From an uncultured Rhodospirillaceae bacterium (GTDB lineage Bacteria > Pseudomonadota > Alphaproteobacteria > Rhodospirillales > UBA2165): a stretch of 13,150 nt of DNA. The stretch covers positions 1-13,150 of the forward strand of contig CAJXJM010000026.1 of the NCBI GenBank assembly GCA_913054205.1. Reading direction: 5' to 3'. The notes below the pieces were generated by a model. That model was not told the DNA's origin and did not search any database. It saw only the letters and a program-made list of their open reading frames with translations. Shown here piece by piece: positions 2,496-11,577 of this stretch. Position 1 is the first letter of the stretch. Every line of letters starts with the position of its first letter. The position numbers and the translations under genes were made by a program.

Positions 2496-3356
2496 CTACT
2501 CCAACAGGCCAATTTCTTTGCCGACGGAAACAATTGGCGCGTAGTCATCATTGGAAGCCGCAATGAAAGAATTCCTCGGGAACTGCTTGAGCAAATTAGG
2601 ATCATTCATGTTCAGCAATGCCTTTTTTACTTTGCCGATGAAGCCCCCACCATAGCGTTTGTCCGCATCGCCCCGGATGCTCCAATTGTAATCCGGATAG
2701 TCTGGCGTGGTCCAAATAATTGAAACTTTGGAGGTATCGATTTTACCGGTTTTCAATTCTTTGTCCCACACGGCAAAATTCACGGCACCAATTTGAAAAG
2801 CCCCAGATTGAACGAGGGCAATGGTGCGGGAGTGGTCGCCGCTAAAGCCGACACGACTAAAGACATTTTTAGGCTTTTTTTTGAAATTCTTGCGGATATG
2901 GAATTCCGGCATCAACCGGCCAGAGGTTGATCCTTTGGAGCCGAAAGTAAATGTTTTCCCCGCCATGGATTTTGGGAAACTCGAAGATTTTTTTAGACCG
3001 GTGCTGGTATGGGCAATGAAATATGTCTTAAACGCCTTATCCTCTGCGCCTTGAGCAATGGCTTGAGAGCCTTTGACCAAATTACGGGCGCGCACACCAG
3101 AGAGACCACCGAACCATGCAAGTTGTACCTGATTGTTGCGGAAAGCAGTGACTGCGGCTGAATAGGATTTGACCGGAATATACTTAACCTCGACGCCAAG
3201 TTCCTTTGTGAGGTAATTGGCAATCTTGCCGAAGCGTGCCTTCAAGGCGCTATCATCTTGATCCGGAATCGCTGTAAACGTAAAGGTTTCTGCAAAAGCC
3301 GGCGCAGACAGGCTGGCAATTAGCGCCGCTGTCGCTAGGGTTTTTACGAAATTCAT
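2496..3356 (-). CDS. Periplasmic binding protein, PhnD-like, of the putative-selenate (oxyanion) subfamily
   Basis: Periplasmic receptor that delivers a ligand to the fused permease. The start at 3356 is set by an AGGAG site seven bases upstream and by an ordinary signal peptide (residues 1-21, cleavage after APAFA); the longer in-frame extension to 3473 is not used. The mature protein begins ETFTFTAIPDQD and carries motifs typical of PhnD-like receptors: VKSYSAAVTAFRNNQVQLAWFGG, then the segment FGSKGSTSGRLMPEF, then FSGDHSRTIALVQSG. From memory, these match the subfamily annotated as putative selenate ABC transporter binding protein better than the 2-aminoethylphosphonate receptors. That label rests on genomic association rather than transport data. 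No selD or other selenium gene is visible here. First gene of the importer operon, about 130 bases downstream of the IclR gene. Confidence 0.85.
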   Translation of the reverse strand: MNFVKTLATAALIASLSAPAFAETFTFTAIPDQDDSALKARFGKIANYLTKELGVEVKYIPVKSYSAAVTAFRNNQVQLAWFGGLSGVRARNLVKGSQAIAQGAEDKAFKTYFIAHTSTGLKKSSSFPKSMAGKTFTFGSKGSTSGRLMPEFHIRKNFKKKPKNVFSRVGFSGDHSRTIALVQSGAFQIGAVNFAVWDKELKTGKIDTSKVSIIWTTPDYPDYNWSIRGDADKRYGGGFIGKVKKALLNMNDPNLLKQFPRNSFIAASNDDYAPIVSVGKEIGLLE

Positions 3357-3456
3357 TGGATATCTCCTGACTAAAAATCGAATACTTAAATTAAAGAGAA
3401 AATACCATAGGAAAGCGATTCCCAGAGGTAAACTACAAATTTGGTAGGGTTTTCTA

Positions 3457-3479
3457 ATATGCGGTTTTCTCACGCATAT
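3457..3479. promoter_or_regulatory. Inverted repeat between the IclR gene and the importer operon
   Basis: ATATGCG (3457-3463) and CGCATAT (3473-3479) form a perfect 7-bp dyad around a 9-base spacer. It lies 9 bases beyond the IclR stop codon and about 100 bases upstream of the binding-protein start. There is no T-run, so it could equally be an operator for the importer operon or a weak 3' hairpin for the IclR mRNA. No convincing -35/-10 pair was found in 3357-3488, although the stretch from about 3370 to 3410 is very AT-rich and is the likeliest promoter location. Confidence 0.3.
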
Positions 3480-3488
3480 GTGATGGGC

Positions 3489-4265
3489 TTAGCGATTGAG
3501 GCCGAGTGCGTGATTGATCTTTTCGCGGCAAGCTTTGAGAGCCTGGGTGTAGCGTTCCTCATTGCCTTCAAATCGTTGTGTCGGCATTGGAATCGAAATG
3601 GCCGCGGTGCCGCGCGGCAAATTACTGATCACGGCGGAAACTGCTGAAATACCTTCCGTATGTTCTTGCCGATCAATCGCAATGCCATCAACGCGCACTT
3701 TCTGTAGTTCTTCCTGGAACGCCCTAATGTCCGTAATCGTTGAACTTGTCAGTTTTTCTAATTCCTGCGGCAAAAGATGGGCTAAGCTGCTTTCATCTAT
3801 TTCAGCGAGTAAACATTTTCCGGGCGCACAGGCGTGAGCCGGAAAACGTGCGCCTACTTCAGAGACGGCAACCAAACCTTTACGCTGCGAAGAACACTGA
3901 TCCAAAAACACCACAGAACTGCCGCTCAAGATCGAGAGGTCAACGGTTTCATTGAGTTCATCGCACAACTCTTCCAAATAGGGACGGATCGGATCTTTGA
4001 AGTCAGAAAGTGATGCCGCTGCAATGCTAAAGAATGCCGGTCCGATGCGAATTTGAGATTCGCCTGGGCCGTCTATGACAAAGCCCTCCACCTTGAGAGC
4101 GCCGACAATGCGCTGCACCGTTGATCGTGGCAGGTTTACTTGAGATGCTATTTGACCGAGACTAAGCCCACGAGATTCATCATTGAGTGCGCGCAGTATC
4201 TCAGCCGCTCTTGAGATAACGCGGATACCGGAGGAGCTTTTTTTAACAGATTCTGACATTGACAT
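3489..4265 (-). CDS. IclR-family transcriptional regulator (first copy)
   Basis: A 258-residue product with the two-domain layout of the family. An N-terminal winged helix-turn-helix spans about residues 14-75, with the recognition region LSLGQIASQVNLPRSTVQRIV and a wing near FVIDGPGESQIRIG. A C-terminal effector domain spans about 85-250, with the usual ARFPAHACAPGKCLLA and AVISNLPRGTAAISIPMP segments. Family members sense small organic acids or aromatic compounds and often control an adjacent catabolic operon. The gene is divergent from the molybdenum transhydroxylase genes across a 106-base gap, making those genes (and itself) the most likely targets. It also precedes the importer operon on the same strand. 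ATG at 4265 is used; ATG at 4259 is an equally possible start two codons later. Ligand unknown. Confidence 0.9.
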   Translation of the reverse strand: MSMSESVKKSSSGIRVISRAAEILRALNDESRGLSLGQIASQVNLPRSTVQRIVGALKVEGFVIDGPGESQIRIGPAFFSIAAASLSDFKDPIRPYLEELCDELNETVDLSILSGSSVVFLDQCSSQRKGLVAVSEVGARFPAHACAPGKCLLAEIDESSLAHLLPQELEKLTSSTITDIRAFQEELQKVRVDGIAIDRQEHTEGISAVSAVISNLPRGTAAISIPMPTQRFEGNEERYTQALKACREKINHALGLNR

Positions 4266-4371
4266 ATTTCCAAGATTCGATACGATTAATCATCTAGTGG
4301 TTGGAATGTACCACCATACGATACTGATAATCAACTGCTTAAAATAGAAAAAAATAAATAGGGACGGGCCG
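4266..4371. promoter_or_regulatory. Divergent promoter/operator region, IclR gene versus transhydroxylase operon
   Basis: The only space from which both the minus-strand regulator and the plus-strand molybdenum enzyme genes can be transcribed. It contains a direct repeat ATACGAT at 4280-4286 and 4316-4322, the palindrome GATTAATC at 4284-4291, and an inverted repeat GTGGT (4297-4301) / ACCAC (4310-4314). An IclR dimer could bind here, but none of these elements matches the 21-bp dyad found further right in the window. A weak AGGGA Shine-Dalgarno site precedes the ATG at 4372. Confidence 0.45.
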
Positions 4372-7300
4372 ATGAAACTTATACTTTCACTTATTCTATT
4401 CGCATTACCGTGGATGCTACGTTTTAAAGCATGGTTCCATAAAGAATTTCGTGAGCGTCTCAAAGAAAAAAATTTCACCGTCCAGATGAAAATCGCTGAT
4501 GATTCCACGGGTCGTTCTTTTACTTTCAAAGACAGTAAAATTTCGTCAGCAAGCGGCATTCACGCCAGCCCAGATGTGACGATCAGTTTTAAAACCGAAT
4601 CGCTTGCTGTGAAACTGCTTTTGCCACCAAGGGATTATCAGGCGCAAATTGACGCGATCAAAAACTTCAATCTCATGGCAATGGGCCCGGATGAGTTGGT
4701 CACGTGGTTTTCTGAAACCGTTATGATGAGCCAGACCGTTGGCTGGAAATATGGCACGCCCGTTGATAACGGCGAAATACGTTACAGCAATCATACCAAT
4801 GGCGGCCCGGTTCATGTTTATGTCAAAGACGGCAAGATTATTCGCATCACGCCGATCGATTTTCAAGATGACGATGGCGATACCTGGACGATTAAGGCGC
4901 GCGGCAGAGAATTTTCGCCACCGCGCAAGACGACGCTTTCACCTCATGGCTTGGCTTCCAAGTCGTTGGTCTATTCGAAAGATCGAAATCTTTATCCGAT
5001 GAAGAGAGTTGATTTTGATCCCAACGGAGATCGCAACTGTCAAAACAGGGGCATCTCCGGATATGAGCGCATCTCCTGGGATGAAGCGCTCGATATTGTT
5101 GCAAGTGAAATTAAACGCGTGAACCGGCAATATGGTCCTGGAGCAATTTTGGCAGCCCGAAGTTCTCATCATACTTGGGGAAATATCGGATATTACATCT
5201 CGGCCTATCAAAAATTTATCAATATTATCGGTGCGACGACCACCATGCTAAACCCAGACAGTTGGGAAGGCTGGTATTGGGGGGCAATGCATCATTACGG
5301 CCATTCGATGCGCAATGGCGCGACGGAAATATATGGCCAAGTTGAGGACTGCCTGCAGGAGGCTGAAATGATCGTCTTTTGGTCGAGCGATCCCGAAGTC
5401 ACCAACGGTGTCTATGGCTCTTTTGAGGGAACAATTCGGCGCCAATGGGAGAAAGAGCTTGGCATCGAAATGGTTCATATCGATCCGTACTTTAATGAGA
5501 CAGCCGCCTTCCTGGGCGGCAAGTGGATTGCGCCGCGCCCAACGACGAGCCCGGCCCTAGCGCATGCTATTACCCATGTCTGGATTGCCGAAGATCTCTA
5601 CGATAAAGACTATGTTGAAAAACGCACCACAGGGTTTGATAAGTGGAGCGCCTATATCATGGGCAAGGACGATGATGGTGTCGCTAAAACGCCGGAATGG
5701 GCCGAAGCGGAAACCGGTGTACCAGCGCGTGAAACACGCGCGCTCGCACGCAAATGGGCAAGCAAAAAAACCTATCTGTCAGCCGGCGGTATGGGGACGA
5801 CCTTTGGCGGCGCTTGCCGAACAGCAACCGGTGCTCAATGGGCGCGCTCGATGATTTGTTTAATGGCGATGCAGGGTTTGGGTAAGCCCGGGATTAACTT
5901 TGGCGGCCTGCAACTTGGCGCGCCGGTTGATTACAATTTTTATTTCCCCGGCTATGCGGAAGGCGGCTTTAACGGTGACAGCATGAACTCCGCCAATGGC
6001 GTGTCGCTATATCAGCGCATGCCGCATTTGATCAGTATGAACCCTACCCAACAGACAATCCCGCGCTTGAAAATGCCGGAAGCGATTATGGAGGGGAAAG
6101 CTGAAGGGTATCCGATTGATATTCGTTCGATCGAAGGCCAGTTCTTCCCGGTGCATTATCCGTCGCCCGGCCATTCGCCAGTGAAAATCATGTATAAATA
6201 TGGCTCGTCCTATATCAGCACGCAGCCGGATAGTAACCGCTATGTCAAAATGTATCAGACAGACGACCTCGAGTTCGTTGTCAGTCAATCGATCTGGTTT
6301 GAGGGTGAGGTTAAATTTGCCGACGTGATCTTGCCCGCCTGCACTAATTTTGAGCGTTGGGATATTGGCGAATGGTCCAATCCCGGTGGCTACGGCTATG
6401 ATTGGGTGGGGCAGCTCAATCACCGCGTCATTGGCATGCAGCACAAATGCATTGAGCCGTTGGGCGAGTCGAAATCTGACTATCAAATATTCAAAGAGCT
6501 TTGCATGCGCATGGGTCATGCTGCGTATTTCACCGAAGGTCACCGCGAGATCGATTGGGTCAAACGCATGTTTGATGCATCGGATCTACCCAAACATATT
6601 TCCTGGAAAAAATTTCGTACCAAAGGCTACTTTGTTGTGCCTGCTGAAAAAGAAAAGCTTCGCTCACCGGTCGCCTATAAATGGTTTGCTGATGGGGTTA
6701 AGAAAAATGTCCCGGAACCGCATCCGTTGCCGGGATCTTACGGTGAAGATTTCCTCGATGGATTACAAACTCAGTCTGGCAAAATTGAATTTGAGAGCCA
6801 GAGCTTGAAGCGATTCGGACAGGACCCGGAACGTCCACCACTGAATAAATATATCCCCTCTTGGGAAGGAATTCATTCCACTGAGCTGTTCGAGAAATTT
6901 CCGTTGCAGTTGATTTCGCCGCATTCTCGCTACAGCTTCCATACCAAGGGCGACGGTAAAGATAGTGCGATCAACGACATTAAAGATCATCGGGTTAATA
7001 TAGACGGATATTTCTATTGGCTGGTGCGAATTTCTGTCTCGGATGCCAAGGCACGCGGGATTGAAGAAAATGATCTGGTAAAACTTTACAATGAGCGCGG
7101 CGCGGTTATCTGTGCGGCGAATATAACCGAGCGGCTATTGCCGGGCATCATTCATTGCCGGCAAGCCTCTGCAGTTTATGATCCAGTTGGCAGGCCAGGC
7201 TATTCAGCGGATCGAGGCGGCTGCGTCAATGTACTCACACCGAAACGTACGCAATCGCTGAAGACCCACTCGGCGGCCTACAATTCCTGTCTCATTGAAA

Positions 7301-7398: not shown

Positions 7399-8241
7399 AT
7401 GAAAAAATGGAACCTGATTGTCGACGTTGCAAAATGTCATAACTCCAATAACTGCTTTTTGTCGGTGGCAGATGAGTATATGGGAAATGAGCATCCCGGC
7501 TACGCGACCGCCATGCCTAAACACGGCCACCACTGGATTAATATACTTCGCAGTGAGCGCGGCCAAGCGCCGATGGTTGATGTCACTTATGTGCCGACGA
7601 TGTGCAATCACTGTGATGATGCGCCGTGCATGGCGGCAGCCGAGAATGATGCGATCACCAAGCGCGACGACGGCATTGTCATCATCGATCCTGAAAAAGC
7701 CAAAGGCCAGAAGCAGATTGTCGATGCCTGTCCTTATGGTGCGATCTGGTGGAACGAAGAAAAAGAAGTGCCTCAGGCCTGGATTTTTGACGCCCATCTA
7801 TTAGACCGCGGCTGGAAGGAGCCACGCTGCGTCCAGGCTTGCCCAACCGGCGCACTAAAATCTGTCAAAATCGAAGACTCTGAAATGCAAAAACGCGTCG
7901 CGGATGAAGAACTTCAAGAACTCCATCCCGAGCACGGTACCAAGCCGCGGGTCTATTACAAAAATCTCGATCTTTTCACCAAATGTTTTATCGGCGGTTC
8001 CGTGATTGCCGATCTTAATGGCGTCGAAGAATGTATTGAGAAAGCAATCGTCCTGCTTAGCAAAGACGGTCACAAAGTTGCCGAAACCTGGAGCGACGCT
8101 TTTGGCGAATTTAAAATCGACGGCCTCGATGCGGAGAGCGGCGAATACGAAATTGAAGTCTCCCACCCGGATCATCCGTCAAAATTCGTAAACGTCATTT
8201 TAGGCGAAAGCAGCTATGTTGGGACAATTAAGCTAGATTAG
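7399..8241 (+). CDS. Iron-sulfur small subunit of the transhydroxylase-type enzyme, with reduced cysteine set
   Basis: Partner of the molybdenum subunit, with an AGGAG site seven bases before the ATG. The 280-residue product has a ferredoxin-type region (1-150) and a C-terminal transthyretin/Ig-like beta domain (about 195-280), as in the Pelobacter transhydroxylase small subunit. The segment GTKPRVYYKNL at 180-190 is also shared. Cysteines in the Fe-S region are C13, C19, C69, C72, C77, C111, C144 and C148. In the remembered Pelobacter sequence twelve cysteines bind three [4Fe-4S] clusters; here positions 16 and 23 are Ser and Val, and the later CxxC pair is W128 and D131. One cluster (C69, C72, C77, C111) is complete, one keeps three cysteines plus Ser16, and one has lost all but one ligand. 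At most two clusters are therefore expected. Confidence 0.9.
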   Translation: MKKWNLIVDVAKCHNSNNCFLSVADEYMGNEHPGYATAMPKHGHHWINILRSERGQAPMVDVTYVPTMCNHCDDAPCMAAAENDAITKRDDGIVIIDPEKAKGQKQIVDACPYGAIWWNEEKEVPQAWIFDAHLLDRGWKEPRCVQACPTGALKSVKIEDSEMQKRVADEELQELHPEHGTKPRVYYKNLDLFTKCFIGGSVIADLNGVEECIEKAIVLLSKDGHKVAETWSDAFGEFKIDGLDAESGEYEIEVSHPDHPSKFVNVILGESSYVGTIKLD

Positions 8242-8365: not shown

Positions 8366-9226
8366 ATGCCGACAATAAATGATGTCACCATCATCAATTC
8401 AAACACTGCCGAAGCCAAGCCGGTCGATTCCGGGCTGGAAAGGACGATCTGCAGCGAGAGAGTGTGTGGTTCAAAGACCCTGAACGTTTACCGCCGAACC
8501 GTTTTAGAAGATCGTCGGTTCGAGCCGCAGGCAGGTGAAGATTACCACCTGATTTACGTCATGGAGGCGTCGAAAGATGGCACAATTAGCTTCAACGGTG
8601 AGTCGCACTCTGCCGATGAAGGCGCCGGTGTGTTGCTCGTGCCGGGCGAATCAGCCGAATTCGAGGTAGCCGGATCGGATCTCGAGCTGCTGCACATGAT
8701 AACGCCAAAGCCTCCTGCTGCAGTTGAAGACGGCTTAGCCGGAGGGCCGGGATATTTTTTCAATCAGGAGACGCTTCGTGTGCTCACTGACGCCAGCGGT
8801 GGCCGCGTGCGTCGTTTCTGCGCCGATTCTTCCGTCAATTTACTCGACGGCAGCCGGCTCACCTCGACCAATGCCATCCAGGCGGGTGAGATGCGCTATC
8901 TCGACGGCGGCTCATCACCTTATCATCAGCACGTCGGCACAGACGCAAATCCGGACGGTGCCGCTCATTGCTACATGACTTTTAAGGGCCGCGGCGTGGT
9001 TGAAGTTGGGGATACGTCCCAGGAACTCGAACCCGGCACACTGGTGTATTTCCCTCCAGGCGTGCCGCATCGGCTTCGCGCTCTTGGCGGTGTACTTGAC
9101 TACTTCGAGATACAGGCTTGGCGAAGTTTCAAGACCAACATCTTCAGCGAGGAGGAGTTAGGGCTCAGGTGGTATTACGATCCCGAATCGGAGGGTGCGG
9201 AGCGGGTGGAGTGGAACCAAACCTAA
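8366..9226 (+). CDS. Two-domain cupin protein
   Basis: A 286-residue product with two cupin barrels, led by an unusually strong AAGGAGGA Shine-Dalgarno site. The C-terminal barrel carries a plausible metal site: PYHQH gives His187 and His189, followed by His201 and by His235 in PPGVPH, with His201 where many cupins have the glutamate. The N-terminal barrel (about 40-115) has the fold signature (GTISFNGESHSADEGAGVLLVPGESAEF) but lacks the HxH motif, so it is probably structural. Bicupins include ring-cleaving dioxygenases, isomerases and decarboxylases. Placement after the transhydroxylase genes makes a metal-dependent step on a polyhydroxylated aromatic or its ring-opened product plausible, but this is inference and I do not recognise a named family. 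The upstream dyad suggests coordinated control with the duplicated-domain gene and the msrA/VOC pair. Confidence 0.85.
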   Translation: MPTINDVTIINSNTAEAKPVDSGLERTICSERVCGSKTLNVYRRTVLEDRRFEPQAGEDYHLIYVMEASKDGTISFNGESHSADEGAGVLLVPGESAEFEVAGSDLELLHMITPKPPAAVEDGLAGGPGYFFNQETLRVLTDASGGRVRRFCADSSVNLLDGSRLTSTNAIQAGEMRYLDGGSSPYHQHVGTDANPDGAAHCYMTFKGRGVVEVGDTSQELEPGTLVYFPPGVPHRLRALGGVLDYFEIQAWRSFKTNIFSEEELGLRWYYDPESEGAERVEWNQT

Positions 9227-9358: not shown

Positions 9359-10192
9359 TTATTGTCCAGCCACCAACTTACAAAAATCTTCCGAGCTCAT
9401 ACCAATCGAAGCGCCCAACGCTCCAGCCGTTTTGTTCACCAACGAAATTTCACCGTCTTTATAAACTGAAACAGAGTCGGATATTCGGGCTGACAGTGCG
9501 CTGACGGTTGCAGCTGGGATTGCTTGCTGATCGAGGGCAGGGAGGCGGCTGGTGCTCGATCCATCGAGGCATAGACCTCCATCATGGAAGACGGCGGCTT
9601 TCACTTTAATGCCGCGCGTGGCTGCCATGGGATTTTTCTGCGGATCACCGCCACCAACGAGCCCCCCGTGAGACCCCGTCAGTATAATCTGTCCGGCATC
9701 CTCGTCTTTAATAAGTCCCATGGTATCAAGGCCGATAATGCGCACGCTTTTAATCTCATCCAGCAAATGTCGTTGGGGTTCGTCTGAGGCGTCAGGAGTG
9801 CCACCGAACGGGTTTGCCTTACGCAATAATGTCGCCGCCTCCTGACATGGTTGTCCCGCCGTGACGCCAAGATTTTTCGCGAGGTCGTTGAAATGACTAA
9901 TCACCCCGCGGGCGAGCATGTCCTTACCGTCACTAATCCGCGCGGTTTTAGAATCGATAACAGCTGCCGCCATGCCAAGTTTTTGCAAATACGGCAGCGC
10001 TGATAGTCCTGCTTGATCTTTTCCTATGCCAGTATCATGGAGGATTAAGGCTCGAACTTCAGCCTGGGCGGCCCATAGCGCTGGACCGACCGTCGCCTGT
10101 GATCCTATTATAAAAACATTGCCTGCAGCCGTATCATCAAGCTGGGTGGCGCTATCAAGCGGTACAACGCGGACATTTACGGGATTTGCCAT
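9359..10192 (-). CDS. Unrecognised protein with an internal duplication (GSHGG / HD-G motifs)
   Basis: The 277-residue product has no signal peptide or membrane segment and is probably cytoplasmic. Two repeats of about 100 residues (about 25-124 and 168-272) have the same layout: a Gly-Ser turn (IIGS, 28-31; LTGSHGG, 171-177), then an HD-G motif (52-55 and 203-206), then L-P-L, then ARISD (84-88 and 235-239), then G-IS-N. From the two HD motifs onward, 51 residues align without a gap with 19 identities by hand count. I recall similar TGSHGG...AAVF-DAG proteins annotated only as hypothetical in proteobacteria, and do not know a function. Start ATG at 10192 has GAAGG seven bases upstream. A copy of the shared dyad lies 21 bases before the start, linking it to the cupin and VOC genes in regulation. 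Confidence 0.8.
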   Translation of the reverse strand: MANPVNVRVVPLDSATQLDDTAAGNVFIIGSQATVGPALWAAQAEVRALILHDTGIGKDQAGLSALPYLQKLGMAAAVIDSKTARISDGKDMLARGVISHFNDLAKNLGVTAGQPCQEAATLLRKANPFGGTPDASDEPQRHLLDEIKSVRIIGLDTMGLIKDEDAGQIILTGSHGGLVGGGDPQKNPMAATRGIKVKAAVFHDGGLCLDGSSTSRLPALDQQAIPAATVSALSARISDSVSVYKDGEISLVNKTAGALGASIGMSSEDFCKLVAGQ

Positions 10193-10720: not shown

Positions 10721-10741
10721 AAATTCCCTGATACGTGAAAG
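10721..10741. promoter_or_regulatory. Candidate operator, degenerate copy 3 of the shared dyad (msrA/VOC divergent gap)
   Basis: An imperfect dyad with half-sites AAATTCCC (10721-10728) and GTGAAAG (10735-10741). Without gaps it matches copies 1 and 2 at 13 of 21 positions each. It abuts the msrA ribosome-binding region on one side and overlaps the AAAGG site of the VOC gene on the other. A protein bound here could block both genes. There is no gene end here, so a terminator is excluded. This copy is the weakest by sequence. Confidence 0.35.
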
Positions 10742-10752
10742 GTAATTCATTA

Positions 10753-11577
10753 ATGTTGAATGTCAAATTACACCATCTCTCGTTTTCGACCGATCAGCGT
10801 GATCAAATGATTGAATTCTATCGTGATCAGATGGGAATGACCGAGATCGAAGAAGTTGGTGGCGATGTTGTGTTGCGGGCTAAGAACCGCATTATGCACT
10901 TTGTCGATGGACCTAAGAACCGCTTGAACTACGCAGCGTATGGCGCGCCGGATCAAAATGTTTTGGACGAGTTGCGCCAAAAGCATGAAACAGCTGGTGT
11001 GACTTTGTCGCCGTCCCCATCGCCGGTCTTTGGTGAGGATGCCTATGCGATTACCGATCCTGACGGTAATCAAATGGTTTTTGGTGTTTATTCAGAGATG
11101 GCTGATGATCAATCAATGGCGGGTCGCATGCAGCACGTCGTTGTCGCCAGTACTCAAGTTGAAGCAATGATCGCGTTTTATTCCGACAAAGTTGGTTTTG
11201 CTGTTACTGATATTGTGCGTAAAGACGACGGTGTGATCACGTCCTGCTTTATGCGATCCAACAACGAGCACCACAGTTTTGCCGTTTTTTTGGGCGAAAC
11301 TGCGAAACTCGATCATAATTGTTATGAATCTTCCAGTTGGAATGACATCCGTGATTGGGCAGATCATTTTTCGGATTCTGAAATTACGATTTTTTGGGGT
11401 CCTGGACGCCATGGTCCCGGCAACAATTTATTTATTATGGTGCGTGATCCAGATGGTAATCCAGTTGAGATTTCTGCCGAAATTGAACAGGTGCCTGAAG
11501 ATCGTGAAACCGGCAATTGGGAGCACAATCCACGTACATTGAATTACTGGGGCAAAGGGATGCAGCGAGTTGAGTAA
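10753..11577 (+). CDS. Two-domain VOC protein related to extradiol (catechol 2,3-) dioxygenases
   Basis: The 274-residue product consists of two vicinal-oxygen-chelate modules (about 5-115 and 125-245), the layout of type I extradiol dioxygenases, which open catecholic rings beside the two hydroxyls using Fe(II) or Mn(II) and O2. In the C-terminal module the metal triad is present: His128 (MQHVVV), His188 (LDHNCYE) and Glu239 (GNPVEIS). The second-shell histidines are His174 (NEHHSFAVF) and His220 (GPGRHGPGNN). The conserved tyrosine nine residues after the latter histidine (Tyr255 in XylE) is Met229. The N-terminal module lacks the triad. ATG at 10753 preceded by AAAGG is chosen over a GTG at 10735. 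The regulator gene follows after 37 bases, probably in the same transcript. The substrate is unknown; a polyhydroxylated product of the nearby molybdenum enzyme is plausible but unproven. Confidence 0.87.
   Translation: MLNVKLHHLSFSTDQRDQMIEFYRDQMGMTEIEEVGGDVVLRAKNRIMHFVDGPKNRLNYAAYGAPDQNVLDELRQKHETAGVTLSPSPSPVFGEDAYAITDPDGNQMVFGVYSEMADDQSMAGRMQHVVVASTQVEAMIAFYSDKVGFAVTDIVRKDDGVITSCFMRSNNEHHSFAVFLGETAKLDHNCYESSSWNDIRDWADHFSDSEITIFWGPGRHGPGNNLFIMVRDPDGNPVEISAEIEQVPEDRETGNWEHNPRTLNYWGKGMQRVE

Follow-up and report, generated by a model that had tools for sequence, protein, structure and literature searches.

What does an additional domain contribute when it stands in front of a molybdenum enzyme? 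This question is raised by the window analyzed here, a stretch of 13,150 nucleotides from an uncultured marine Rhodospirillaceae bacterium, in which a large molybdenum subunit starts with about 130 residues that the pyrogallol-phloroglucinol transhydroxylase AthL of Pelobacter acidigallici lacks. This difference, stated in an earlier note on the sequence, was confirmed: the alignment with the AthL structure (4v4c) begins only at residues 132-136.

Judged from its domains, active-site residues and iron-sulfur partner, the window protein is a putative pyrogallol transhydroxylase-like MopB enzyme. The N-terminal segment (residues 1-123; 4372..4740, + strand) leads over a connection (residues 124-144; 4741..4803, +) into the AhtL-like first domain PF21423 (residues 145-199; 4804..4968, +; 95.8 bits against a cut-off of 27), the Molybdopterin oxidoreductase domain PF00384 (residues 207-711; 4990..6504, +), which includes His266, Ser297 and Tyr528, and the Molydopterin dinucleotide-binding domain PF01568 (residues 846-973; 6907..7290, +). 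All three catalytic domains exceed their Pfam cut-offs, and Ser297 is, by analogy, the probable Mo ligand. The gene is followed by those for a small iron-sulfur subunit of 280 aa (Fer4_11; 7399..8241, +), with a C-terminal CarboxypepD_reg-like stretch below cut-off, and for two possible pathway partners, i.e. a cupin protein (8366..9226, +; Cupin_2 above cut-off) and a VOC-family catechol-2,3-dioxygenase-like protein (10735..11577, +; it passes the Pfam cut-off for Glyoxalase but not those of the NCBIfam equivalogs). IclR regulators are present in the locus, among them a divergent one recognized by profile matches (3489..4265, - strand). Further upstream lie a substrate-binding protein matching the NCBIfam model of a putative selenate ABC transporter (2496-3473, -; 378.9 against a cut-off of 250) and, after it, ATPase-like and permease-like ORFs assigned by eye (1823-2479 and 322-1845). 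A protein adjoining MsrA (9359-10192, -), also seen at the related loci L009 and L010, had only a sub-threshold match to DUF1805.

Translation from the first ATG at 4372 is consistent with a likely ribosome-binding site, AGGGA (4360..4364, +), 7 nt before it; no comparable site was recognized by eye for the later in-frame starts at codons 102, 104, 109, 118 and 119. Compared with five relatives, codons 1-124 had pS values of 0.69-0.85 but pN values of only 0.12-0.24, and this stretch is therefore judged from the sequences to be coding and under purifying selection. In the same five pairs, the non-synonymous rate of the N-domain was two to nearly three times that of the core.

An AF2 model, Foldseek and VIA agree on an alpha/beta fold for residues 1-123, with elements in SCP2 order and UbiJ-SCP2 as the best Foldseek match. 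The earlier note had proposed an SCP2-like segment preceded by a hydrophobic helix. The fold was borne out and the helix is present (helix 1, residues 2-22), but in the model and in VIA it belongs to the SCP2-like fold instead of standing apart from it. Its mean hydropathy was 1.30, compared with -0.41 in 12 canonical SCP2 proteins. The full-length model reached a pLDDT of 85.1 and a pTM of 0.87, with values below 50 in loops 266-274 and 671-674, the equivalents of active-site loops in AthL. When the domain was modeled alone, ten-residue blocks from residue 81 (the last ending at 137) had pLDDT values of 70, 65, 88, 83, 57 and 63; in the full-length model these rose to 87, 91, 94, 93, 92 and 93, a hint that the N-domain packs on the catalytic core, although the rise also reflects a different alignment.

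At the level of sequence, homology to canonical SCP2 is less certain. Residues 1-137 scored 18.2 bits with PF02036, below the gathering cut-off of 21.3, and 13 of 67 N-domains matched this profile with E values no higher than 1, the lowest being 0.0016. With hhalign, the probability for the N-domain against canonical SCP2 was 0.2%, or 2.9% with the stand-alone family described below; wider sets gave 0.8% and 19.5%, with reversed controls at 0.3-3.1%. One stand-alone relative matched PF02036 positions 12-99 of 101 (E 0.009, below cut-off). Sequence searches of the PDB with residues 1-137 and with alignments A1 and A5 returned no hit (best E 1, 0.76 and 1.2), and PF02036 detected no SCP2 in the window genome at E ≤ 1e-3. 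Residues 1-123 are described here as a divergent SCP2-like module, whose likeness to canonical SCP2 rests on the predicted fold.

A protein search with the window enzyme scored 7,997 candidates, of which 5,031 reached E ≤ 0.001. Among the best 120 of these 5,031 homologues, 119 aligned to the N-domain over at least 100 residues (the exception, P0039, over 29); the domain is nameless in Pfam. Median identity over the best 120 was 49.6% for the N-domain against 67.5% for the core. Of 80 genome loci kept from 262 relatives, 78 carry the domain and the other two begin at a contig edge. A core tree was built from 95 rows (85 with the domain, defined by over 100 residues ahead of the core, and ten without, namely AthL and nine locus copies; the second copy of L075 has 26 such residues). 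L001 and L089 of the window genome itself, identical rows, rows with X and spans below 800 query residues were left out of the trees. A single branch with SH-aLRT 100 separated all 85 domain-bearing rows from the others, AthL among them, in a quick search with no bootstrap and with a long-branch warning among the rows lacking the domain. The clade comprises rows from Pseudomonadota, Thermodesulfobacteriota, Myxococcota, Chloroflexota and Bacillota, many of them MAGs, so that single placements may err. The expectation that proteobacterial relatives share the layout held, and the layout extends beyond that phylum; the domain is common to one widespread branch of the enzyme family. As the simplest account, the module would have been gained once within this branch of the pyrogallol-transhydroxylase family and then retained. 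Among the papers listed in searches of the open-licence PMC literature, we recognized none on an SCP2-transhydroxylase fusion.

The enzyme is rare in even samples: it was found in 1 of 398 genomes by phylum (the window genome itself; E ≤ 1e-80) and in 3 of 300 by order (the order of G612, G612 counted; E ≤ 1e-100), while the N-domain occurred in 6 of 240 by class, including the window genome and a weak stand-alone match in G099. Five loci (L053, L064, L065, L074 and L075) have a domain-less copy of about 49% identity near the fused one; in the last four, the two copies are adjacent on opposite strands. In the window genome, complete fused copies occur on contigs C26, C131 and C44, three in all. 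Contig C10 carries a C-terminal part with the gene for an iron-sulfur subunit after it, and an N-terminal part lies at the end of contig C18 (L005). The latter was rejected as a stand-alone copy, its frame running off the contig, and is probably a fourth fused paralogue. Likewise, 14 close stand-alone candidates from the A2 search were taken for fragments, because 7 of the 14 continue into the core and the contigs, stated for 12 of the 14, measure only 413-4,010 bases. Selenocysteine in a Desulfamplus copy was also rejected; the TGA codon comes immediately behind the aligned part and terminates the gene itself.

Residues His144, Arg153, Asp174, Ser175, Trp176, Trp354, Tyr404 and Cys557, which we take to be the active-site and pocket residues of AthL, reportedly line its pocket according to the 2004 paper on the structure. 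None of the 85 clade rows departs from His144, Ser175, Trp176 or Tyr404, and Asp174 is retained in 84 of them. The position of Arg153, by contrast, has become aromatic in 84 of 85 members (Tyr 59, Trp 24, Phe 1, with a single Gln), including Tyr275 of the window protein (5194..5196, +), compared with Lys in six, Pro in three and Arg in one of the ten domain-less rows. Trp354 is replaced by Phe, His, Leu or Tyr in 82 of 85. Since the catalytic residues are retained while Arg153 gave way to an aromatic residue, these alignments suggest that the clade keeps the chemistry of AthL and acts on a less polar substrate.

Stand-alone relatives of the N-domain do exist. A 126-residue ORF in G099 (L094) matched its profile with 43.7 bits, and a family of 16 proteins (A5) aligned to it by hhalign with a probability of 98.6 (E 6.5e-16, 119 columns). 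A5 matched 23 of the 398 genomes of the phylum sample at E ≤ 0.001, the window genome counted, and the fused-domain profile scored stand-alone hits at E of about 1e-10 to 1e-28. We inspected 25 such loci (L155-L179 without L173, plus L094), several of which share one genus and one of which (L175) was matched by A5 only and scores as canonical SCP2. Neighbors were called by tblastn (E ≤ 1e-8) to one example each within the fetched flanks. By this measure, a reductase gene that we read as rubredoxin-type lies nearby in 12 of the 25 (L161, L163, L165, L168-L170, L172, L174 and L176-L179), an FAD monooxygenase gene in three, and neither in ten. The stand-alone group at L094, L155 and L156 is located beside a PRK06126-type FAD aromatic monooxygenase. 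The best NCBIfam models stayed below cut-off, with two reductases NorW-like and two monooxygenases PRK06126-type (423.8 and 396.1 of 445 bits).

One group of paralogues, 80-95% identical to the copy at L055, has a gene setting different from that of the window copy. At L041, L047, L055 and L068, hmgA, fahA, the fusion and a P450 gene follow each other on a single strand; L048 shows hmgA, fahA and the fusion before the contig ends, and L061 a contig start followed by the fusion and the P450. In the window genome, C131 (L002) carries the end of the fumarylacetoacetase gene fahA, the fusion and the P450, whereas hmgA and the start of fahA are on C318 (L148), probably one operon split by assembly. 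No iron-sulfur gene lies between fusion and P450 in this group. At L026, a fusion nearer to that of the window, with an iron-sulfur subunit, faces P450, fahA and hmgA. Both hmgA and fahA of L055 exceed their NCBIfam cut-offs. Judging from this operon context, the enzymes of this one group may form homogentisate or a closely related compound. A step analogous to that of the flavin enzyme MhaAB of Pseudomonas putida, which converts 3-hydroxyphenylacetate to homogentisate (PMC3053370), would be reasonable for the fusion, although the P450 could equally be the homogentisate-forming enzyme.

In our view, the observations are best explained by a docked hydrophobic-ligand module at the membrane surface that feeds a phenol-hydroxylating Mo site, a reading to which we give an even chance. 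The SCP2-like module would pack on the catalytic subunit, bind its hydrophobic ligand at the surface of the membrane and deliver substrate to a site in which His, Asp, Ser, Trp and Tyr are unchanged and the pocket is without AthL's charged Arg. This ligand could be the very aromatic that is to be hydroxylated, or else a lipid holding the enzyme at the membrane; an alkyl-resorcinol, a quinone precursor or a lipid-linked phenol, as the earlier note envisaged, would be candidates. This reading is favored by the fold, the single clade, the switch at Arg153, the contexts of the stand-alone proteins, the hydropathy of helix 1 and an OmpW gene directly upstream of one plasmid-borne fused copy. Another plasmid-borne copy has a gene for an 'outer membrane protein transport protein' about 5 kb away (three of eight matching plasmid records were viewed, one of them without annotation). 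Resorcinol hydroxylase activity is reportedly membrane-associated, according to the abstract of Darley 2007. A review places both RhL, the resorcinol hydroxylase of Azoarcus anaerobius, and the enzyme of Pelobacter in the cytoplasm (PMC10100899), which counts against a membrane location.

The main rival, which we regard as possible but unlikely, gives the domain a respiratory quinone as ligand and, with it, the role of electron exit or quinone dock. Hydroxylation with oxygen derived from water frees two electrons and needs an acceptor while transhydroxylation by AthL is redox-neutral, so that the absence of the domain from AthL would be accounted for. UbiJ, whose SCP2 domain is the best structural match, is a ubiquinone-synthesis protein, some stand-alone relatives lie near redox genes, and, according to the same review, resorcinol serves RhL as electron donor in anaerobic respiration (PMC10100899). 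On the other hand, the fold by itself does not reveal the ligand, an FAD monooxygenase neighbor needs no quinone, and the expected electron route is the iron-sulfur subunit, for which no gene lies between the fusion and the P450 in the paralogues of the hmgA operon. Equally doubtful to us is a structural or oligomerization domain, or a plain membrane-surface anchor, with no specific ligand in the catalytic cycle. The very hydrophobic helix 1 would fit such a role, as would the faster non-synonymous evolution and lower conservation relative to the core, but all 85 clade rows, drawn from several phyla, have retained the domain, and this, like the stand-alone relatives near hydroxylase or reductase genes, speaks for more than a filler role.

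We give still less credence to a broader, joint reading, in which the domain would be a general module delivering hydrophobic substrates to unrelated hydroxylases (fused to Mo phenol hydroxylases, free beside FAD aromatic monooxygenases and rubredoxin-type reductases) and the fused enzyme would provide marine Rhodospirillales with an O2-independent route to homogentisate replacing 4-hydroxyphenylpyruvate dioxygenase. All seven genomes considered (G000 and those of L026, L041, L047, L048, L055 and L068) have hmgA over cut-off, but only two (L026 and L068) have 4-hydroxyphenylpyruvate dioxygenase over cut-off; in the window genome, 88.9% complete, homogentisate dioxygenase was found and 4-hydroxyphenylpyruvate dioxygenase was not. 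Among 27 other genomes with hmgA in the class sample of 240, 22 had the dioxygenase (both at E ≤ 1e-60), a difference with Fisher p 0.014 between genomes that are related and incomplete. The link between fusion and dioxygenase absence is suggestive only, being weakened by this kinship and incompleteness, by G208, which has fusion, hmgA and dioxygenase together, and by the five of 27 genomes without the dioxygenase, none of which is among the N-domain-bearing ones. Moreover, homogentisate is water-soluble, so the hmgA context alone does not call for a lipid carrier.

Finally, a mis-called start, with translation from near codon 118-134 and a frame open upstream by chance, is highly improbable: in-frame ATG codons occur at 102, 104, 118 and 119, but only codon 1 has a good ribosome-binding site (by eye), and the conserved coding sequence under purifying selection, the confident predicted fold and the conservation across phyla contradict it, as they do the start near codon 124-134 that the earlier note had considered.

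The docked-module model suggests that the fused enzymes handle greasy or membrane-bound partners, beyond free water-soluble phenols. Should the domain prove to have a hydrophobic partner, it would single out a so far uncharacterised group of Mo phenol hydroxylases acting at the membrane or on greasy aromatics. The pocket switch and the hmgA operon provide testable leads on the substrate, and there are similar leads on the stand-alone proteins linked to hydroxylase or redox genes. Among known systems, AthL has no SCP2-like domain and lies outside the fused clade; its pocket residues Arg153, Trp354 and Cys557 are not retained in the window protein, which has Tyr, Phe and Pro at these places. RhL likewise belongs to the Ser-coordinating MopB branch and hydroxylates a phenol (PMC10100899). 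UbiJ-SCP2 (6h6n/o/p) and the SCP2-like domain of human MFE-2 (1ikt) share 13-15% identity with the N-domain in VIA alignments; unlike these, the module described here is fused to a Mo hydroxylase, and its first helix is more hydrophobic than those of the 12 canonical SCP2 proteins. In the alkylsulfatases SdsA1 and Pisa1, an SCP2-like domain is attached to an unrelated catalytic domain and is C-terminal, whereas here it is N-terminal.
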